NCBI RefSeq assembly: GCF_947487805.1
Contig: NZ_CANKXW010000004.1
Span: 186,001-250,000 of the forward strand
From: an uncultured Tateyamaria sp.
Lineage (GTDB): Bacteria; Pseudomonadota; Alphaproteobacteria; Rhodobacterales; Rhodobacteraceae
Direction: 5' to 3'
Length of the DNA stretch: 64,000 nt
The translations under genes were made by a program, and so were the position numbers. The notes beneath the pieces are model-generated. The model did no database searches, was not told the DNA's origin, and saw only the letters and a program-made list of their open reading frames with translations. Of this stretch, positions 1,671-29,151 are shown piece by piece (position 1 is the stretch's first letter; each line of letters opens with the position of its first letter).

Positions 1671-2843
1671 TCACGATGCCAGCAGGTCGTTTTTTGTCAG
1701 AGAGAGATCAGAGGCGATCCACCGCTCCTTGAGTGTGTTCAATCGTTCGCCCAACGCCGGTCCCGACAGCGTCGCCAGGTCCCGTGCAGCGACGGGAAAA
1801 TCGGTGCCTGCCCCTTGCAGGACCAAGTCAATGTCACCGGGCCCAACGTGCTGTCGCGCCATCGCGCTACGCAAAAGGAGCGCGCCAACACCGGCCGCTG
1901 GCCCCGCGACATGGCCCAGCGCCCGCAGTTGCAGCGTCGACGCCATGTGAGTGCGCGTCGCGTCCAACTGCTTTGCCGCCTTGCGCGACAATCGAAGCCG
2001 ATCCAACGCATCCGCACCGCCAAGCGCCGCAAGGCGGGTCAGCGGGTCGACCACCGCGCCGCTCAGCTCTTCGAGATGCACAAGAGGACCAAGGAAATCC
2101 GGCACTGCGCCGGGCAGAATGTGGGCCAGAACACCGGTCTGGTGCATCACACTGACTGCAGGCACCGGATCGGGCGCGGAAAGCAATTTCAGAACCTCGG
2201 CCCCAACCCGTTCCGCGGACAGGGTGTCCAGCCCGTCAAGGTTACCCGCAATTCCCGCCAGCGCAGAAGGATCCCAGCCCGCCGTCCGGTCAGCGTACCA
2301 CGCGTGAAACCGGAAATACCGAAGGATGCGCAGATAATCCTCACGAATCCGCGCGGCGGGGTCTTCGATGAACCGGACCGTCCGCGATTGCGCATCCGGC
2401 AATCCGCCCAGCGGGTCAATGATCAGGCCGCTGCGATCCGCATAAAGCGCGTTCATGGTGAAATCGCGCCGACGGGCGTCTTCGGCAATGTCGGTCGAAA
2501 ACGCGACAACAGCACGTCGCCCGTCCGTCGCGACATCCCGGCGAAAGGTCGTGACCTCGAACGGAACCGCGTCAACCACCACCGTGATTGTGCCATGATC
2601 TTCGCCAGTCGGGATGCACCGCAGCCCGGCCTCGGTCGCCACGCGCATGGTTTCGGCGGGCACGGCATCAGTTGCAATGTCGATATCCGATTGCGGTTCG
2701 TTCATGATGGCGTTGCGCACGCACCCGCCGACAAAATACGCAACATGGCCCGCCACCTCCAGCGCCTGGCAGACCGCCTGCGCCGACGGATCAATCAGGA
2801 ATGGCGTCGAGGCCGGGAGGTGGGGGAAAGCAGTTCGGTCCAT
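1671..2843 (-). CDS. cca: CCA tRNA nucleotidyltransferase
   Basis: This enzyme adds or repairs the 3' CCA end of tRNAs in the cytoplasm. It is a class II nucleotidyltransferase of the poly(A) polymerase/CCA family. Visible are the head-domain motifs VGGCVRN, DIDIAT (metal-binding aspartates) and RRDFTMNALY, then the neck helix IREDYLRILRYFRFH. I use the ATG at 2843 (MDRTAFPHLP, 390 aa), because the longer frame from 2927 only adds unconserved residues that overlap the Nudix gene more deeply. Even so it overlaps the end of the upstream Nudix gene by 49 nt, so the two are probably co-transcribed with hslO. Whether it adds all of CCA or only A cannot be told from these motifs. Confidence 0.93.
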   Translation of the reverse strand: MDRTAFPHLPASTPFLIDPSAQAVCQALEVAGHVAYFVGGCVRNAIMNEPQSDIDIATDAVPAETMRVATEAGLRCIPTGEDHGTITVVVDAVPFEVTTFRRDVATDGRRAVVAFSTDIAEDARRRDFTMNALYADRSGLIIDPLGGLPDAQSRTVRFIEDPAARIREDYLRILRYFRFHAWYADRTAGWDPSALAGIAGNLDGLDTLSAERVGAEVLKLLSAPDPVPAVSVMHQTGVLAHILPGAVPDFLGPLVHLEELSGAVVDPLTRLAALGGADALDRLRLSRKAAKQLDATRTHMASTLQLRALGHVAGPAAGVGALLLRSAMARQHVGPGDIDLVLQGAGTDFPVAARDLATLSGPALGERLNTLKERWIASDLSLTKNDLLAS

Positions 2844-3415
2844 GCCCGCAATATACGCGCTGTTGCGCCCCAGATGTAATAGGGTCCGTAAGGCACTGTA
2901 TAGTAGGCCCGGCGCTGCCCGCGCCATCTGCGCGACTGGACCTGAAAATTGGACTCGGTCAGAACGTGGACCAGCGGCACACTGAACACCTCGGCCACCT
3001 CACCCTGTTCCGGCACAGGGTCAAATGGTCCATGCAACAGCCCGATCACAGGCGTAACCGTAAAGGATGTCACCGTCTCGTGTGGCGCGAGCGTGCCAAG
3101 GATCTCCACGGTTTCGGACGGCAGCCCGATCTCCTCCTGCGCCTCGCGCAACGCGGTCGCAATCAGATCGACATCACCGCTGTCCTGCTTGCCTCCGGGA
3201 AAGGCGATTTGCCCCGGATGGTGTTTCAGCGCCGAGGACCGTTTCGTCAGGATCAGGCGATAACCACCCTCGGTCCACAAGACCGGCGCCAGCACCGCCG
3301 CCGGGCGCAGTGTCCGGTCCGGCGCCAGTTTGACATCCGGGTTCAGATCAAAGTCCGACGACGCCTGACACGTCCGCCCCATTGCGGAGCGTGTCAGATC
3401 GATCAGGTCACTCAC
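2795..3415 (-). CDS. Nudix hydrolase, CoA pyrophosphatase type
   Basis: This is a Nudix hydrolase of the YeaB/NudL (CoA diphosphatase) type, 206 aa. The Nudix box spans about residues 74-98, from GGKQDSGD to REAQEEIGL. The first acidic position of the box is Asp rather than Glu, as is common in this subfamily. The conserved lead-in HHPGQIAFPGG is present. It would cleave coenzyme A or its derivatives to 4'-phosphopantetheine and adenosine 3',5'-bisphosphate in the cytoplasm; that substrate is inferred from the family. It overlaps hslO by 8 nt upstream and cca by 49 nt downstream, so it sits in the middle of a three-gene minus-strand operon. Confidence 0.88.
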   Translation of the reverse strand: MSDLIDLTRSAMGRTCQASSDFDLNPDVKLAPDRTLRPAAVLAPVLWTEGGYRLILTKRSSALKHHPGQIAFPGGKQDSGDVDLIATALREAQEEIGLPSETVEILGTLAPHETVTSFTVTPVIGLLHGPFDPVPEQGEVAEVFSVPLVHVLTESNFQVQSRRWRGQRRAYYTVPYGPYYIWGATARILRAWTELLSPTSRPRRHS

Positions 3416-19686: not shown

Positions 19687-20824
19687 CGATTGGACCAATG
19701 GCGGGTTTGGGCTGTATGTCCATTGGCCCTTCTGCGCTGCCAAATGTCCCTATTGCGACTTCAATAGCCACGTGACCCGGTCCGTTGACCACGCCGCCTG
19801 GTGCGCGGCGTTGGTGTCCGAAGTGCACAAGATAGGCGCCGAAACCAGGGGAAGGACGCTGAACTCCGTCTTCTTTGGTGGCGGTACTCCCAGTCTGATG
19901 GACCCACGAACAGTAGACGCAATCCTTGCTGCGGTGCACCAGACCTGGCCCACCGCGAATGATCTCGAAGTAACGCTCGAAGCAAACCCCACATCTGTCG
20001 AGGCAAGCCGGTTTGCCGATTTTCGTACCGCCGGCGTCAACCGCGTATCGATGGGCATTCAGGCATTAAACGATTCTGACCTCAAGGCACTGGGCCGCAT
20101 GCACAGCGCTACCGAAGGTCTGGCCGCATTTGATATCGCGCGGAATACGTTTGACCGCGTCAGTTTTGATCTGATGTATGGGCGTCAAAATCAGTCTCTA
20201 ACACAATGGGAATCAGAGCTTTCGCAAGCACTGTCTCTCGGCCTCGATCACGTGTCACTTTATCAATTGACGGTCGAACAAGGCACGGCGTTCGGGGATC
20301 GCTACAACGCAGGTAGGCTGCGCGGCCTGCCCGATGATGACCTTTCGGCGGACATGTACGCGCTTACCCAAGACATATGCGCGGAACACGGGCTGGATCG
20401 GTACGAGGTGTCGAACCACGCAAAGGACGGAGCGGAGTCCAAGCATAATTTGATCTATTGGCGTTACGGCGACTACGCCGGGATCGGGCCCGGCGCACAT
20501 GGACGCATCACCACGCAAGGGGCGCGGCTCTCCACTGTGCAGACACGCATGCCTGCAGCTTGGCTTTCAGGAGATGATCGTGAATTGCGCAGCGCTTTGA
20601 CCGCATCAGATCAAGCCACCGAGTTCCTGTTGATGGGCATGCGTGTCCGGGATGGAATAAGCATGGACCGGTACTCGGAGATTTCCGGTAACCCTTTGAA
20701 TTCAAGTAATATTAAGGCGTTGTTGGAAATGGGAATGATCGAAATCGAAGGCGATCAACTGCGCGCTTCCGATCACGGGTTTGCCCTGCTCAACGCCGTA
20801 CTTGAAAAGCTCCTGATTGACTAA
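19679..20824 (+). CDS. hemW: Radical SAM heme chaperone HemW (coproporphyrinogen oxidase-like)
   Basis: The 381-aa protein is a radical SAM enzyme of the HemN family with the cluster motif CAAKCPYC (Cys19, Cys23, Cys26) and GGGTPSLM. It lacks the longer N terminus and features of true HemN, so the heme-trafficking HemW role is more likely than oxygen-independent coproporphyrinogen oxidase. The start is TTG at 19679, inside the rdgB 3' end with an 8-nt overlap; the conserved sequence GGFGLYVHWPFC begins only a few residues later, leaving no better start. The stop overlaps the convergent parB stop in CTAA. Confidence 0.9.
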   Translation: MADDWTNGGFGLYVHWPFCAAKCPYCDFNSHVTRSVDHAAWCAALVSEVHKIGAETRGRTLNSVFFGGGTPSLMDPRTVDAILAAVHQTWPTANDLEVTLEANPTSVEASRFADFRTAGVNRVSMGIQALNDSDLKALGRMHSATEGLAAFDIARNTFDRVSFDLMYGRQNQSLTQWESELSQALSLGLDHVSLYQLTVEQGTAFGDRYNAGRLRGLPDDDLSADMYALTQDICAEHGLDRYEVSNHAKDGAESKHNLIYWRYGDYAGIGPGAHGRITTQGARLSTVQTRMPAAWLSGDDRELRSALTASDQATEFLLMGMRVRDGISMDRYSEISGNPLNSSNIKALLEMGMIEIEGDQLRASDHGFALLNAVLEKLLID

Positions 20825-21708
20825 CCATTGCTAAGCCTGCGGCACAGATCATCAAGCTGCTCGAGCGTTTCATAATTCAGGACGAGCTGCCCGGATTCTC
20901 CGTCGCCCTTGTGCGACAGCGACACTTTAACCCCGGTGGCCGCTGACAAGTCGTTTTCCAATGCACGGGTATCTGCATCTTTTGCAGGCGCCGCCTTGCG
21001 ACCCTCGGAAAAGATGTTGTCATCGCCGGACTTCGCAGCCTTCTTTACCAAGGCTTCGGTTGCGCGCACCGACAAGCCACCCGCAATCACCTTTTTCGCC
21101 ATCGCCAAAGGATCATCCGCCGTAATCAGCGCACGCGCATGGCCCGAGCTGAGCGATCCATCCATGACATATGTCTGAATCGCGTCCGGCAGCTGCAACA
21201 GGCGCAACAGGTTCGCAATGTGACTGCGGCTTTTGCCAAGCGCTTCGGCCATTTTCTCCTGCGTATGGCCAAACCGGTCCATCAGCTGTTTATAACCCGC
21301 TGCTTCTTCGATCGGGTTCAGATCCGCGCGTTGAATGTTTTCAATGATCGCAACTTCGAGAACTTCGGTATCCGTGAAATCGCGTATGAGGACTGGCAAA
21401 CGATGCAACTGCGCCTGTTGCGCCGCACGCCACCGGCGTTCCCCCGCCACGATTTCATACATGTCTCCGACCTGGCGAACGATCAACGGCTGAAGAACGC
21501 CCTTTTCCTTGATCGATGCAACCAGATCATCCAGCGGGGCAGCATCAAACTGCTTACGGGGCTGGTCCGGATTTGGGCGAATTTTCTCGATCGGGATCTG
21601 TTGATCAGCCGAGCGGCCCGCCGGTGTCGCGGTGTCTTGATCGGCCACATCTGCCATCAATGCGGACAAACCACGCCCGAGCCCACGCTTTTTGTCATTG
21701 CCGGCCAT
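20821..21708 (-). CDS. parB: Chromosome partitioning protein ParB
   Basis: ParB binds parS sites near the origin, spreads along DNA using CTP and drives origin segregation with ParA. The 295-aa product shows the N-terminal LGRGLSALMAD, the CTP-binding/ParB box GERRWRAAQQAQLHRLPVL with the preceding PNPDQPRKQF, and a helix-turn-helix (MAEALGKSRSHIANLLRLL). The C-terminal dimerisation domain ends at LCRRLSNG. It follows parA by 2 nt. Two exact parS sites at 23080 and 24976 are its expected targets. Confidence 0.96.
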   Translation of the reverse strand: MAGNDKKRGLGRGLSALMADVADQDTATPAGRSADQQIPIEKIRPNPDQPRKQFDAAPLDDLVASIKEKGVLQPLIVRQVGDMYEIVAGERRWRAAQQAQLHRLPVLIRDFTDTEVLEVAIIENIQRADLNPIEEAAGYKQLMDRFGHTQEKMAEALGKSRSHIANLLRLLQLPDAIQTYVMDGSLSSGHARALITADDPLAMAKKVIAGGLSVRATEALVKKAAKSGDDNIFSEGRKAAPAKDADTRALENDLSAATGVKVSLSHKGDGESGQLVLNYETLEQLDDLCRRLSNG

Positions 21709-21710
21709 CT

Positions 21711-22523
21711 CTATGCTCCCACCACTGCTTTGTTGTTGTTTACCAGTTCCTGCGCCAATTCGCGGTAGGCCACCGCGCCCTTGGACCCGGAATCATAGGA
21801 CAATACGGGCATGGCAAAAGATGGCGCCTCACTGACCCGCACATTTCGCGGGATGCGCGTCTTGAAAACAATGTCGCCCAAATTGTCCCGCGCATCTTGT
21901 TCAACCTGTTGAGACAAATTGTTCCGACCGTCGTGCATCGTCATCACGACACCCTCGATGCGCAAATCGGGATTCCCAGTCTGGCGCACCTCACGGATCG
22001 TCAACATCAGCTGTGATAGGCCTTCCAGCGCAAAAAATTCACTTTGCAGCGGAACCAGCACTGAATGCGAGGCGATCATCGCATTCACCGTCAACAGGTT
22101 CAGGGATGGCGGGCAGTCGATCAGGATGTAGTCCAGAGCATAGCTGTCCATCTGTGTTTGCCGCAAAGCATCGTGCAGGAGAAAGCTCCGCTTTTCATTT
22201 GCAATCAGCTCGATGTCCGCAGAGCTGAGGTCTACGGTTGCGGGCACAATCATCAAATCTTCCAGATCGGTAGCCAACACCACATCTTTCAAAGCGACAT
22301 CGCCCAGCAAAAGATCGTACGTGGTGTGCGTCCGATCTTCCATATCGATCCCAAGTCCAGTGGACGCATTGCCTTGTGGGTCCAGATCCACGACCAGCAC
22401 GCGACAGCCGATTTCGCACAGTGCGGCGGCAAGATTTATGGTGGTCGTCGTCTTGCCGACACCGCCCTTCTGGTTGGCCACAGAAATGATTTTGGGACCT
22501 TTTGGTCGGCTTGGGTCAGACAC
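21711..22523 (-). CDS. parA: Chromosome partitioning ATPase ParA
   Basis: ParA is the Walker-type ATPase that moves ParB-parS complexes. The 270-aa protein has the deviant Walker A motif KGGVGKTTTT (about residues 19-27), a switch region VDLDPQGNASTGLG and DCPPSLNLLTVNA. It overlaps the upstream rsmG stop by 8 nt and precedes parB, giving the usual mnmG-rsmG-parA-parB order next to the origin. Confidence 0.97.
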   Translation of the reverse strand: MSDPSRPKGPKIISVANQKGGVGKTTTTINLAAALCEIGCRVLVVDLDPQGNASTGLGIDMEDRTHTTYDLLLGDVALKDVVLATDLEDLMIVPATVDLSSADIELIANEKRSFLLHDALRQTQMDSYALDYILIDCPPSLNLLTVNAMIASHSVLVPLQSEFFALEGLSQLMLTIREVRQTGNPDLRIEGVVMTMHDGRNNLSQQVEQDARDNLGDIVFKTRIPRNVRVSEAPSFAMPVLSYDSGSKGAVAYRELAQELVNNNKAVVGA

Positions 22524-23127
22524 GTTCTATATCCCTTATGGTCAGGATCGCTGCTTCACTATGTGTCATACTCGGCGTCGCTTCATATGAAAACCGCCAG
22601 TTTTCCTGAGCGTCGGCAATCTCCTGCCTCCATTTTGCACCCTTCATGAACACACAAACACCGTCAGGCGACAAGTGTGGCGTTGACCAGTGCAAAAGTT
22701 GATCCAGGTCCGCCAAGGCGCGTGCGGAAACGATGGACGCGCCTTGGGGCGGCGCATCTTCGGCGCGGGTGGCTAAAACCGTTATCGGCAAACTCAGCGT
22801 TCGAGCGCAGGTTCGCAGGAAGGCTGCCTTACGCTGGTCACTCTCGATAAGAGTAAAGCCTGTTTCATGACCCAAACCATCCGCGATTATTGCGACCACG
22901 ACCGCGGGCATCCCGCCGCCACTGCCCAAATCACACCATTTTCCACAGGATTGCCTGAAAACCTGCGCAGAATCCCAGATGTGCCTGTCTTCAAGCTCTG
23001 CCAAGGTCGATTTGGCGACAAGGTTGATCTTGGCGTTCCACTTGCGAAGCAACTCGGCATATGCCGTCAGCTTATCCAATGTTTCACGTGAAACATCTTC
23101 GGGAAACCAGCTGGGCACATGAGTCAT
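22516..23127 (-). CDS. rsmG: 16S rRNA (guanine-N7)-methyltransferase RsmG
   Basis: RsmG (GidB) methylates G527 of 16S rRNA (E. coli numbering) using SAM. The 203-aa product has the SAM-binding loop [16 protein letters not shown] and the family opening [13 protein letters not shown]. The codons for the VSRET stretch are formed by a parS palindrome, so the protein sequence here is partly dictated by a segregation site. It overlaps mnmG by 4 nt (ATGA) and parA by 8 nt. Confidence 0.96.
23080..23095. promoter_or_regulatory. parS centromere site 1, inside rsmG
   Basis: TGTTTCACGTGAAACA is a perfect match to the universal 16-bp chromosomal parS palindrome; one more base pair on each side extends it to 18 bp. 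It lies in codons near the 5' end of rsmG, encoding VSRET. ParB encoded 1.4 kb away should bind it. Confidence 0.93.
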
Positions 23128-24992
23128 GCCGAACGCTTTTCCAGATACCGAATTCGACCGAGGATCAACGCCAGTCCGGCAGGCGTCATACCATCGATAC
23201 GTCCAGCCTGAGACAAATCCGCAGGGCGTGCACGTTCCAATTTGGACACAAGCTCCGCGGAGAGGCCGGTGACTGCACCATATTCGAAATCTTGCGGAAT
23301 TTTCAGCGCCTCGTCCTTGCGCAGCCGTTCAACATCTTTCTCCTGACGCTGAATGTAATTGGCATAAAGCGCGTCCCTGGACATTTGTTCTTGGATATCA
23401 TCCGGCACCTCTGAAAGGCTATGGTCAAGGCGCACCACGTCCGCATAAGCCACATCCGGGAACGCCAAGAGCTGGAAAGCCGTGCGTTTGGTTCCGTCCT
23501 GGTTGATGCGAATGCCCGCTCCGGAAATCTGCTTTGGTGTATATTCAATGGCCTTCAGGCGAATCTTTGCATCTGCAAGCGCGTCGGCCTTGGACAAGAA
23601 CATGCGCCTACGCTCCTCTCCGACACACCCGATGTCCAATCCCAATGGTGTAAGCCGTTGATCAGCATTATCCGCCCGCAGCGACAAGCGGAACTCGGCG
23701 CGTGACGTGAACATCCTGTAAGGCTCCGTCACCCCGCGCGTCGTCAGGTCATCGATCATGACGCCAATGTAACTTTGATCGCGGCGGAAGTGGACGGGTT
23801 CCCTGTCTTGCGACGCCCGTGCAGCATTCAGCCCGGCAACCAACCCCTGCGCGGCCGCCTCCTCGTACCCGGTTGTCCCGTTGATCTGCCCAGCCAGATA
23901 CAGCCCTGGAACACATTCCAAGGACAAATCCGACCGCAATGCACGCGGATCGACATAGTCATATTCAATTGCATAGCCTGGCTGGACGATTTTTGCCTGC
24001 TCCAAACCCTTGATCGAATGCACATAGGCGTGCTGCACGTCTTCAGGCAGAGATGTCGAAATCCCATTGGGATAAACCGTCGTGTCGTCCAAACCTTCAG
24101 GTTCGAGGAAGATTTGATGCGAGTCCTTATCCGCAAACCGCACGACTTTATCCTCGATTGACGGGCAATAGCGCGGGCCAACACCTTCTATGTGGCCGCC
24201 ATACATGGCAGACTTCTCAAGGTTTACCTGAATGATGTCATGTGTCTGCGCGTTGGTGTGGGTGATCCCGCACGCAATCTGCCGCAAGGGCGTGGTCTTG
24301 GACATAAATGAAAACAGTGTGGGCTCGTCATCACCTTCTTGTCGGTCCAATGACGTCCAATCAATAGTTCGCCCATCCAGTCGCGGTGGCGTACCTGTCT
24401 TGAGTCGACCCATCGGCAATTCAAAGCTGTCCATGCGATGCGCCAAGTCAGACGATGCCTTGTCGCCCATACGCCCACCGGAATAGGACACGTCGCCGAT
24501 GTGGATTACGCCGCGCAAGAACGTTCCCGTTGTCAGGATCACTGACTTGCCACCAAGGCTCACCCCATCGGCAAGCAAAACGCCCGCAACCCTCTGTCCG
24601 CTCATGACGAAATCTGTCGCTTCGCCTTCGATCACTGTCAGATTTGGCGTGGATTCAATCATGCCAAGCATTTCGCGATGGTACACCTTGCGATCAGATT
24701 GCGCGCGCGGACCTTGCACAGCTGGGCCTTTGCGGCGGTTCAACAGCCGAAACTGGATTCCGGCCGCATCGGCGACACGCCCCATGATGCCATCCATCGC
24801 GTCCACTTCGCGGACGAGATGCCCTTTACCCAGACCGCCAATCGCCGGATTACACGACATAACGCCAATGCCACTGCGTTTGAGGGTGATCAGCGCGGTG
24901 TCTGCACCCATACGAGCCGCTGCATGTGCAGCTTCGCAGCCGGCATGGCCGGCACCAATGACAATGACATCGAATTGTTTCACGTGAAACAC
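23124..24992 (-). CDS. mnmG: tRNA uridine 5-carboxymethylaminomethyl modification enzyme MnmG
   Basis: MnmG (GidA) with MnmE and FAD modifies U34 of certain tRNAs. The FAD-binding motif [19 protein letters not shown] is at the N terminus, followed by [18 protein letters not shown], and the protein (622 aa) ends in the usual helical domain. I place the start at GTG 24992, 4 nt after the mnmE stop (TAG TGGA GTG); a TTG 15 nt further upstream lies within mnmE, and a GTG three codons later is possible. The start codon touches a parS site. It forms mnmE-mnmG-rsmG-parA-parB. Confidence 0.96.
24976..24991. promoter_or_regulatory. parS centromere site 2, at the start codon of mnmG
   Basis: TGTTTCACGTGAAACA occurs again, identical to the site in rsmG and 1.9 kb from it. 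It encodes FHVKQ at the MnmG N terminus and overlaps the proposed GTG start codon by two bases. Bound ParB could therefore also touch translation-initiation DNA of mnmG; that is inference. Confidence 0.93.
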
Positions 24993-27693: not shown

Positions 27694-28143
27694 TCAGAAT
27701 TTCACGACCACGGACAGAACGATCAACACCATCAAAAGCGTCGGAACCTCGTTCATCATCCGGTACTGTCGGCCAGTCTTGATTGGACCACCTGCAGCAA
27801 ACGCCTTGCGCTGGCCGCTCAGCCATCCATGAAAGCCGGACATGGCCAAGATGCCCACCAGCTTGGTCCAGGGCCACACAGCGCCCCAATCGACCACACC
27901 GGGGATCAGGGCAAGGCAGATGCCAAAAATCCAGGTGGCAATCATGGCCGGATTCATGATCACCTTTAGCAGCTTGTATTCCATCGTCTGGAATAGGGCA
28001 TGCGTGTCACCAGACAAACCGACCTGTTCAGAGTGATAGACATAGAGGCGGGGCAGATAGAACAGTGCCGCCATCCATGCAATCACGGACATGATATGAA
28101 ATGCCTTTATCCAAGGATAAACCGTTGCAAGCATATCGATCAT
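27694..28143 (-). CDS. hemJ: Protoporphyrinogen IX oxidase HemJ
   Basis: HemJ is the membrane protoporphyrinogen oxidase of most alphaproteobacteria, converting protoporphyrinogen IX to protoporphyrin IX. The 149-aa protein has about four membrane helices, the conserved AFHIMSVIAWMAALFYLPRLYVYH stretch (His in HIMSVIAWMA) and the charged loop KAFAAGGPIKTGRQYRMMNEVPT. A GGGGAG ribosome site precedes the ATG at 28143 by 7 nt. It is the gene closest to the origin on the left and is read away from it. Confidence 0.93.
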   Translation of the reverse strand: MIDMLATVYPWIKAFHIMSVIAWMAALFYLPRLYVYHSEQVGLSGDTHALFQTMEYKLLKVIMNPAMIATWIFGICLALIPGVVDWGAVWPWTKLVGILAMSGFHGWLSGQRKAFAAGGPIKTGRQYRMMNEVPTLLMVLIVLSVVVKF

Positions 28144-28170
28144 GGCCCGTCTCCCCGCGCTGACGATCCT

Positions 28171-28200
28171 CCCTATAAATAAAATAAAGAAATAAGAAAG
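28171..28200. other. A+T-rich block, possible DNA unwinding element
   Basis: The sequence from 28171 consists almost only of A and T (runs such as TAAATAAAATAAAG) in an otherwise GC-rich chromosome, next to hemJ and within the candidate origin. Such a block is where duplex opening by DnaA would be expected. It may also include hemJ promoter sequence. Confidence 0.5.
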
Positions 28201-28229
28201 GTTGATGATTTTGTAGGGAAGCCGATTTC

Positions 28230-28238
28230 TGTGGATTA
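28230..28238 (-). promoter_or_regulatory. DnaA box, one mismatch
   Basis: TGTGGATTA on the plus strand reads TAATCCACA on the minus strand, one base from TTATCCACA. It lies 30 bp from the A+T-rich block. Confidence 0.5.
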
Positions 28239-28325
28239 TCCCGTTGTTCGGTCAGTTGTCCGCACTGTGTAAATATTCCGGGCCGAGCCGTGTGGTATTG
28301 GGTATGAATCAATAAAGCACTTATT

Positions 28326-28338
28326 TATCAATGTGTTA
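28326..28338 (+). promoter_or_regulatory. Putative IHF-binding site
   Basis: TATCAATGTGTTA fits the IHF consensus WATCAANNNNTTR at every fixed position. IHF sites are a known part of alphaproteobacterial origins; here it sits in the middle of the candidate origin. Confidence 0.5.
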
Positions 28339-28372
28339 AATCTCGCACGGTCCATAAGTTTCAGAACGGATC

Positions 28373-28381
28373 TGTGGATAA
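28373..28381 (-). promoter_or_regulatory. DnaA box, exact
   Basis: TGTGGATAA is the exact reverse complement of the DnaA box TTATCCACA, placed centrally in the gene-free gap. Confidence 0.75.
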
Positions 28382-28397
28382 TCTTGTATATAGAAGG

Positions 28398-28406
28398 TTA
28401 CACACA
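28398..28406 (+). promoter_or_regulatory. DnaA box, one mismatch
   Basis: TTACACACA differs from TTATNCACA at one position and lies 16 bp after the exact box at 28373, in opposite orientation. Confidence 0.45.
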
Positions 28407-28543
28407 GGCTCAGGGTTGTCCTCATCCTCATGGGGTGGAAATCGGGTAACTTAGGTGAACCTGGCAAGCAATACAGGCTTGCACTGAACATCGCGGTTTC
28501 GCACACACGGGCGCACACTCTTCCACATGGTCTTCACACAGGG

Positions 28544-28552
28544 TTATCCACA
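28544..28552 (+). promoter_or_regulatory. DnaA box, exact, touching the maf start codon
   Basis: TTATCCACA ends at the A of the maf ATG. DnaA bound here could affect maf expression as well as origin activity. A weaker copy with two mismatches (TCTTCCACA) is at 28519-28527. Confidence 0.75.
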
Positions 28553-29151
28553 TGGCGCCTTCGGTTGTTCTGGCTTCTGGTTCTCAAATCCGCGCGCAGC
28601 TGCTGCGAAACGCGGGTCTGCAGTTTGACGTTCAAATCGCCCGCGTTGACGAAGAGACGGTCAAGACGGCGTTGCTGGCAGAACAGGCCAACCCCCGCGA
28701 CATTGCCGATACTCTGGCCGAGATGAAAGCCAAACGCGTCGCCGACAAGATGCCGGACGCGATGGTGATCGGCTGCGATCAGGTGCTGGCGTTTGACGGG
28801 CAGATCCTGTCGAAACCCAAGGACAAGGCGGATGCCAAGGCGCAACTGATCGCGATGCGCGGAGAACGTCACATGTTGCTGTCCGCAGCCGTGATCTATC
28901 ACGAGGGAAAACCGATTTGGCGGCATGTCGGCACGGTCCGTCTGAGGATGCGGAATGTGTCCGATGCGTATCTCGATGGATATATCGACCGAAATTGGGA
29001 TGACATACAGCACTCAGTTGGCGCATACCAACTGGAGGCCGAGGGGGTGCGCCTGTTCCAGAGCATCGAAGGGGACTATTTCCACGTGTTGGGAATGCCG
29101 CTTTTGGAACTGTTGTCGTTCCTGACGCTGCGTGGCGTGATCGAAGCATGA
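28552..29151 (+). CDS. maf: Maf-family nucleotide pyrophosphatase
   Basis: Maf proteins hydrolyse non-canonical nucleoside triphosphates such as modified pyrimidine nucleotides. The 199-aa product has the family motif [16 protein letters not shown], the DADQ-like VIGCDQVL and [18 protein letters not shown] (split YQLEAEG, IEGDY). It is the first gene to the right of the origin and begins at a DnaA box with little room for a ribosome site. It overlaps aroE by 4 nt (ATGA). Confidence 0.9.

Follow-up and report, generated by a model that had tools for sequence, protein, structure and literature searches.

The hemJ–maf intergenic gap as the very probable chromosomal replication origin of a roseobacter of, or near, the genus Tateyamaria

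We conclude with high confidence that the intergenic gap between hemJ and maf is the chromosomal origin of replication (oriC) of a bacterium that belongs to the genus Tateyamaria or stands very close to it. The gap of 408 bp occupies positions 28144-28551 (no strand assigned) of the window, which is the whole 64-kb stretch of DNA analysed here, and corresponds to G000:C4:214144-214551 in contig coordinates. We observed a cluster of DnaA boxes, the position of the gap, its conservation and parS, all of which speak for an origin. A preliminary description of the window had already proposed oriC at this place, and the proposal is supported by the box cluster, the conserved gap, parS, the parAB neighbourhood and 80 relatives (the best 80 of 296 matches). 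The gap is very probably an ordinary, well-supported oriC of the alphaproteobacterial type in a roseobacter, well conserved among relatives. An origin is thereby located in a so far uncharacterised roseobacter, and the anatomy of the gap is common to the same best 80 of 296 relatives.

Borders and conservation of the gap

The left border of the gap is hemJ (UPF0093; 27694-28143, minus strand; Pfam PF03653, E = 1.5e-57) and the right border is maf (28552-29151, plus strand; Pfam PF02545, E = 3.7e-44). The two genes diverge around the 408 bp, in line with the outward change of strand described earlier. The gap had also been described as the only one above 300 bp in the window. Our own gene calls gave three such gaps, hemJ-maf included. 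Since the other two are genes overlooked by our calling script (rsmG, which was recovered by Pfam, and the ORF at 2795-3415, which we take to be a NUDIX gene), hemJ-maf is, on the basis of our calls, the only real gap of this size. An Rfam scan of the window gave no match.

Relatives were collected by a HemJ protein search, from which the best 80 of 296 matches were taken, so the named relatives lean to close kin; the nearest come from the genus Tateyamaria. All 80 fetched relatives were kept in the gap counts, with the Maf and HemJ ends extrapolated from tblastn matches. In each of these best 80 of 296 maf lies divergently beside hemJ and the gap is kept (80/80), with a mean length of 405 bp (sd 8, range 379-433 bp). 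Together with our own sequence they make up the 81 sequences counted below.

Gene neighbourhood and parS sites

In Caulobacter, parAB and the gid genes lie on one side of the origin and maf, aroE, coaE and dnaQ on the other. The gene names of the preliminary description agreed with Pfam on both sides of the gap. The hemJ side carries ParB, ParA, GidB, GidA, MnmE, Rho and UPF0093 (HemJ), and the maf side carries Maf, AroE, CoaE, an exonuclease (DnaQ-like) and SecB; mnmE, rho and secB are additions to the earlier list. Both parB (20821-21708) and parA (21711-22481), identified by Pfam, are on the minus strand.

Two exact parS sites lie on the hemJ side, at 24976-24991 and 23080-23095 (no strand assigned), at distances of 3.4 and 5.3 kb from the gap's midpoint. 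They are the only copies of this 16-bp site in the whole 4.14-Mb draft genome, and none was found elsewhere when up to two mismatches were allowed. Among the best 80 of 296 relatives, parS within one mismatch was present in every one of the 69 loci that span 20 kb or more and in 74 of the 80 loci overall, the remaining six being short loci or loci without parS. The relatives' sites are strongly one-sided, with 152 on the hemJ side versus 1 on the maf side. Both parS and parAB are thus found close to the gap, as is expected of an oriC. As stated in the available part of PMC8116508, parAB has been proposed as an anchor for predicting alphaproteobacterial oriCs.

A cluster of DnaA boxes in the gap

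The gap holds the two exact DnaA boxes described earlier, box C (28373-28381, minus strand) and box H (28544-28552, plus strand). Two near boxes had been claimed as well, and this was only partly borne out: there is one single-mismatch box, box A (TAATCCACA, 28230-28238, minus strand), and the other boxes have two mismatches and start at 28256, 28398, 28416, 28422 and 28519. The first of these is the weak box B (TTGTCCGCA, 28256-28264, plus strand). Across the 81 sequences, box A departs from the consensus at a single position in 54 and is exact in none, and box B is within one mismatch in 25. Counted by column, box C is within one mismatch in 26/81 and box H in 54/81, with 23 exact. Neither the exact boxes nor the exact IHF site described below are at fixed places in most relatives, which we counted against the oriC reading.

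In the 4,142,356 bp of the draft genome we found 23 exact DnaA boxes and the reversed control gave 20, so single boxes mean little and it is the cluster that counts. About 0.002 exact boxes are expected by chance per 408 bp; the gap has 2. It is also the top 400-bp DnaA-box window of the 345-kb contig C4, with a score of 12.5, followed by a window with 5.0 (mean 0.42, sd 0.66). When boxes with at most one mismatch were counted in the 81 sequences, 245 fell in 32.6 kb of gaps versus 230 in 1,484 kb of flanks, a density about 48 times higher in the gaps (relatives being the best 80 of 296). Shuffled gaps had 8.6 boxes on average and 20 at most. The gap therefore carries the DnaA-box cluster that marks members of the bacterial oriC class.

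GC skew and the region of dnaA

Cumulative GC skew had been suggested as a check, with a minimum elsewhere speaking against the gap, and on contig C4 the check nominally goes against it. The raw minimum is sharp and lies at C4:268378 (window coordinate 82378), 54 kb from the gap in the direction of maf and 7 kb past dnaA. We used four-fold sites to separate coding-strand from replication-strand bias, and this strand-corrected skew also flips at C4:268378, from -0.27 before to +0.24 after. The origin might accordingly be sought near the minimum, at C4:268.4 kb and 7 kb from dnaA, with the hemJ-maf gap as a relic or regulatory region, which we regard as very unlikely. A minimum at a similar distance was found in Tateyamaria G001 and G007. 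Furthermore, the block around the flip (C4 254.9-323.8 kb) is collinear in Roseobacter GAI101 without any corresponding flip in the raw skew there, so a rearrangement is not a straightforward explanation. We also observed a synteny break relative to Ruegeria pomeroyi near the flip.

However, neither an exact DnaA box nor parS is present in this region, and the best nearby box window scores 3.0 versus 12.5 at the gap; the dnaA neighbourhood was rejected as the origin on these grounds. The minimum itself is inside a called gene with flanking spacers of about 95 bp. In both R. pomeroyi and GAI101 the dnaA-carrying block is on the hemJ side, more than 110 kb off, while the stretch around hemJ, the gap and maf stays together and collinear (the synteny/BLAST chains exclude short chains and matches below 200 or 300 bases). 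Fifteen stretches sampled from five other contigs, whose chromosomal status is assumed only, gave corrected skews from -0.20 to +0.23 with sign changes within C1, C2 and C3. The strand bias is thus a patchwork, and this too speaks against an origin at the minimum.

We then compared 13 genomes from -40 kb (-20 kb in four of them) to +60 kb around the gap, with bootstrap errors over genes; several minima lie near the edge of these stretches and are local only. Averaged over 20 kb, the corrected skew was -0.097 on the hemJ flank and -0.022 on the maf flank. The corrected step at the gap was upward in 11 of the 13 genomes (the exceptions being Tateyamaria G001 and Gemmobacter G205), which are not independent because the same genes recur across relatives. 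Of the neighbouring steps that served as controls, the one toward maf was upward in 8/13 and the one toward hemJ in 2/9. At 10-kb resolution the change at the gap was from -0.148 to +0.024 in R. pomeroyi and from -0.135 to +0.011 in GAI101; our own genome showed a smaller step, from -0.093 to -0.011, after which the skew was negative again. The raw minimum was more than 10 kb from the gap in 12/13 genomes, displaced by 14-56 kb toward maf in 11/13, and 2-19 kb from the gap in 5/13, including GAI101. With raw minima so displaced, a patchwork of bias and a corrected step at the gap itself, the minimum on C4 is in our judgement not decisive, and raw cumulative skew was rejected as a locator of the origin for its 54-kb offset.

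GC skew was described as insufficient to predict origins in several alphaproteobacteria (PMC1914354, available part), and OriC1 of Rhodobacter sphaeroides was placed by cumulative GC skew together with replication and partition loci (PMC6315104, available part). In the roseobacter group, raw GC skew alone can miss the position given by boxes and parS by tens of kilobases.

Two features of the corrected skew were seen along the flanks. On the hemJ side it was negative up to the gap in 12/13 genomes. Over about 40 kb of the maf side (28552-64000 plus 4.5 kb beyond) it ranged only from -0.20 to +0.035 in the 13 genomes rather than showing clearly positive values, which, like the two genomes lacking the step, we counted against the oriC reading. 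This near-neutral maf side could come from gene-specific codon use, the genes there being largely shared.

The A+T-rich block and the conserved element

The A+T-rich block noticed earlier proved to be extreme for the window. The richest 60-bp windows of the 64 kb start at 28161-28180 and reach 72% A+T, and the most A+T-rich 60 bp, at 28173-28232 (no strand assigned), is a probable DNA unwinding element. At the level of the sequence, a predicted unwinding region therefore lies beside a box.

The most conserved stretch of the gap is the GATGATGATTnnGTAGG element adjoining this block, and not a DnaA box. In 63 non-Tateyamaria sequences the conservation peaked in GATGATGATTnnGTAGGG, with an information of 1.33 for the 11-bp mean centred on 28202, and was lower in the boxes (1.13 in box H, 1.01 in box A). 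The GATGATGATTnnGTAGGG element is at 28201-28218 (plus strand), has one mismatch here and contains a TAG (3'-GAT-5') 13 nt from box A. Its best match genome-wide, with this one mismatch, is the gap; three other places have two mismatches and the reversed control gave none. TGTGGATTA was found in the first 140 bp (hemJ end) of 50 of the 81 sequences, and 49 of these 50 have the TAG at a 13-nt spacer from a box. We also tried the exact GATGATGATTNNGTAGG as an order-wide signature and rejected it, as only 14/196 genomes match and our own is absent from them. Ten of the 14 matches are beside hemJ and/or maf and four have neither in their locus of about 3 kb, so the exact element is lineage-variable.

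Taken from the available parts of PMC8287927 and PMC10721633, the arrangement is like that of BUS with DnaA-trios, in which a DnaA box is followed by a spacer (13 nt here), a box-proximal 3'-GAT-5' and an A+T-rich block. For BUS origins, the part of PMC8287927 at hand gives a spacer of 10-13 nt before the box-proximal 3'-GAT-5' trio. Unlike the BUS described in these parts of PMC8287927 and PMC10721633, the in-frame triplets after the first trio (GTT, TTA and GTA, by eye) miss the 3'-GAT-5' consensus, and the conserved repeat here is GATGATGAT read 5' to 3'. The gap thus has the box-proximal trio at about 10-13 nt and lacks a run of further in-frame trios.

At the other end of the gap, the exact box at 28544-28552 does terminate on the A of the maf ATG, as had been described, and a box within one mismatch ends on this A in 50/81 sequences (our own and the best 80 of 296 relatives). 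A link between this putative DnaA box and maf expression is possible, and these 50 sequences are no more than compatible with it. The order at 28540-28554 is AGGG, DnaA box and maf ATG, so that a Shine-Dalgarno-like stretch would be set apart from the start codon by the box itself; GG is found at the place of AGGG in 62/81.

Since the genes are divergent and a box touches the maf start codon, one could take the gap for no more than a DnaA-controlled promoter region of hemJ and maf. We consider this extremely unlikely, because it leaves unexplained why the length is constant and why the gap has an A+T-rich block and a conserved element, with parS and parAB adjacent to it.

IHF and CtrA sites, known origins and a proposed mechanism

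The perfect IHF consensus mentioned in the preliminary description was found at 28326-28338 (TATCAATGTGTTA, plus strand) and is the only exact match in the window on either strand. An exact consensus is present in 9/81 gaps (our own and the best 80 of 296), with a mean of 2.2 and a maximum of 5 in shuffles, and the possible IHF site is a weak one. No full CtrA site (TTAA-N7-TTAA) occurs within 27.5-29.5 kb of the window, so there is none in the gap, and the origin-borne CtrA sites of a Caulobacter-type Cori are lacking, a point that we counted against the oriC reading. In the set of 81, such a site was present in 15 gaps.

According to the available part of PMC1914354, Cori of Caulobacter crescentus (hemE / COG1806) is similar in its adjoining haem-synthesis gene, its length of more than 400 bp, its A+T-rich stretch, its DnaA boxes and an IHF-like site. 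It differs, in the same part, in that hemE takes the place of hemJ and that it has five CtrA sites versus no full one here; in our gap, maf is the directly adjoining gene. The gap falls in the same class as the predicted alphaproteobacterial oriCs of the Ori-Finder type (PMC8116508) and R. sphaeroides OriC1 (PMC6315104), as far as the accessible portions of these papers describe them. Unlike in those, the skew minimum and the evidence from boxes and parS are 54 kb apart here. A literature search for Rhodobacter oriC together with hemJ returned no match.

We propose that DnaA would bind box A (TAATCCACA), next to the A+T-rich block, and would form a filament toward hemJ through the conserved GATGATGATTnnGTAGG element with the assistance of the boxes at 28373 and 28544. 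The filament would open the A+T-rich block as the likely site of opening, and the opened block would allow helicase loading for two forks, presumably bidirectional. ParB on parS 3-5 kb away would then segregate the copies. IHF may also have a role at the origin.

A second DnaA-box locus upstream of an xthA-like gene

Just one further place in the genome has two exact DnaA boxes within 400 bp of each other. This pair is outside the window, in tandem at C2:304166 and 304242 (span G000:C2:304166-304250, or L018:10166-10250), and lies upstream of an Exo_endo_phos gene (Pfam), presumably xthA, exonuclease III. The 76-bp pair is present in 9/12 genus loci (our own included), though the surrounding sequence has diverged. 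Downstream of the pair are GAATC (GANTC) and TTAA-N7-TTAA, a CtrA-type site (by eye in 10/11 aligned).

When we searched blind for pairs of exact boxes with a spacing of 73-79 bp, 20/292 genomes of the order matched and the control gave none. The pair was upstream of the same xthA-like gene in 18 of the 20, and the spacing was 76 bp in 16, 77 in three and 75 in one. When up to one mismatch per box was allowed, the pair was found upstream of the xthA-like gene in 10/53 sequences and was absent in 43/53 (shuffles gave 0). These 53 consist of 40 of the 50 genomes best matching after our own, four already found by the pattern and six others having been left out, and of 13 further ones, three of which (G001, G005 and G006) had, judging by their coordinates, been counted before among the genus loci. 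The pair is real but clade-restricted, as it occurs in 10 of the 53 only.

Two exact boxes kept 76 bp apart in most genus loci could suggest that the origin is here, yet this has next to no chance of being right, given that the locus has no parS and that the pair is absent from those 43 sequences. It is also separated from hemJ-maf by 1.48 Mb in R. pomeroyi and, in GAI101, by 2.26 Mb when measured along the contig (1.54 Mb in the opposite direction, should the contig be a closed circle); we therefore did not take it for an origin.

With hemJ-maf as oriC, the xthA box pair may represent a further site of DnaA control. E. coli has datA and DARS as DnaA sink and recharging sites. It is conceivable, though we think it unlikely, that a roseobacter subgroup splits DnaA control between the hemJ-maf oriC, which has no full CtrA site here, and the distant xthA-like locus with its boxes 75-77 bp apart and its GANTC and CtrA-type sites. 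The latter would then either serve as a sink or recharging site for DnaA, as datA or DARS do, or link DNA repair with the replication cycle. The pair offers a lead of its own on how DnaA may be controlled away from oriC. Beside the xthA-like gene we also observed a divergent 152-aa ORF (G000:C2:303606-304064, minus strand) with repeats of about 20 residues containing MFSSGSAP.
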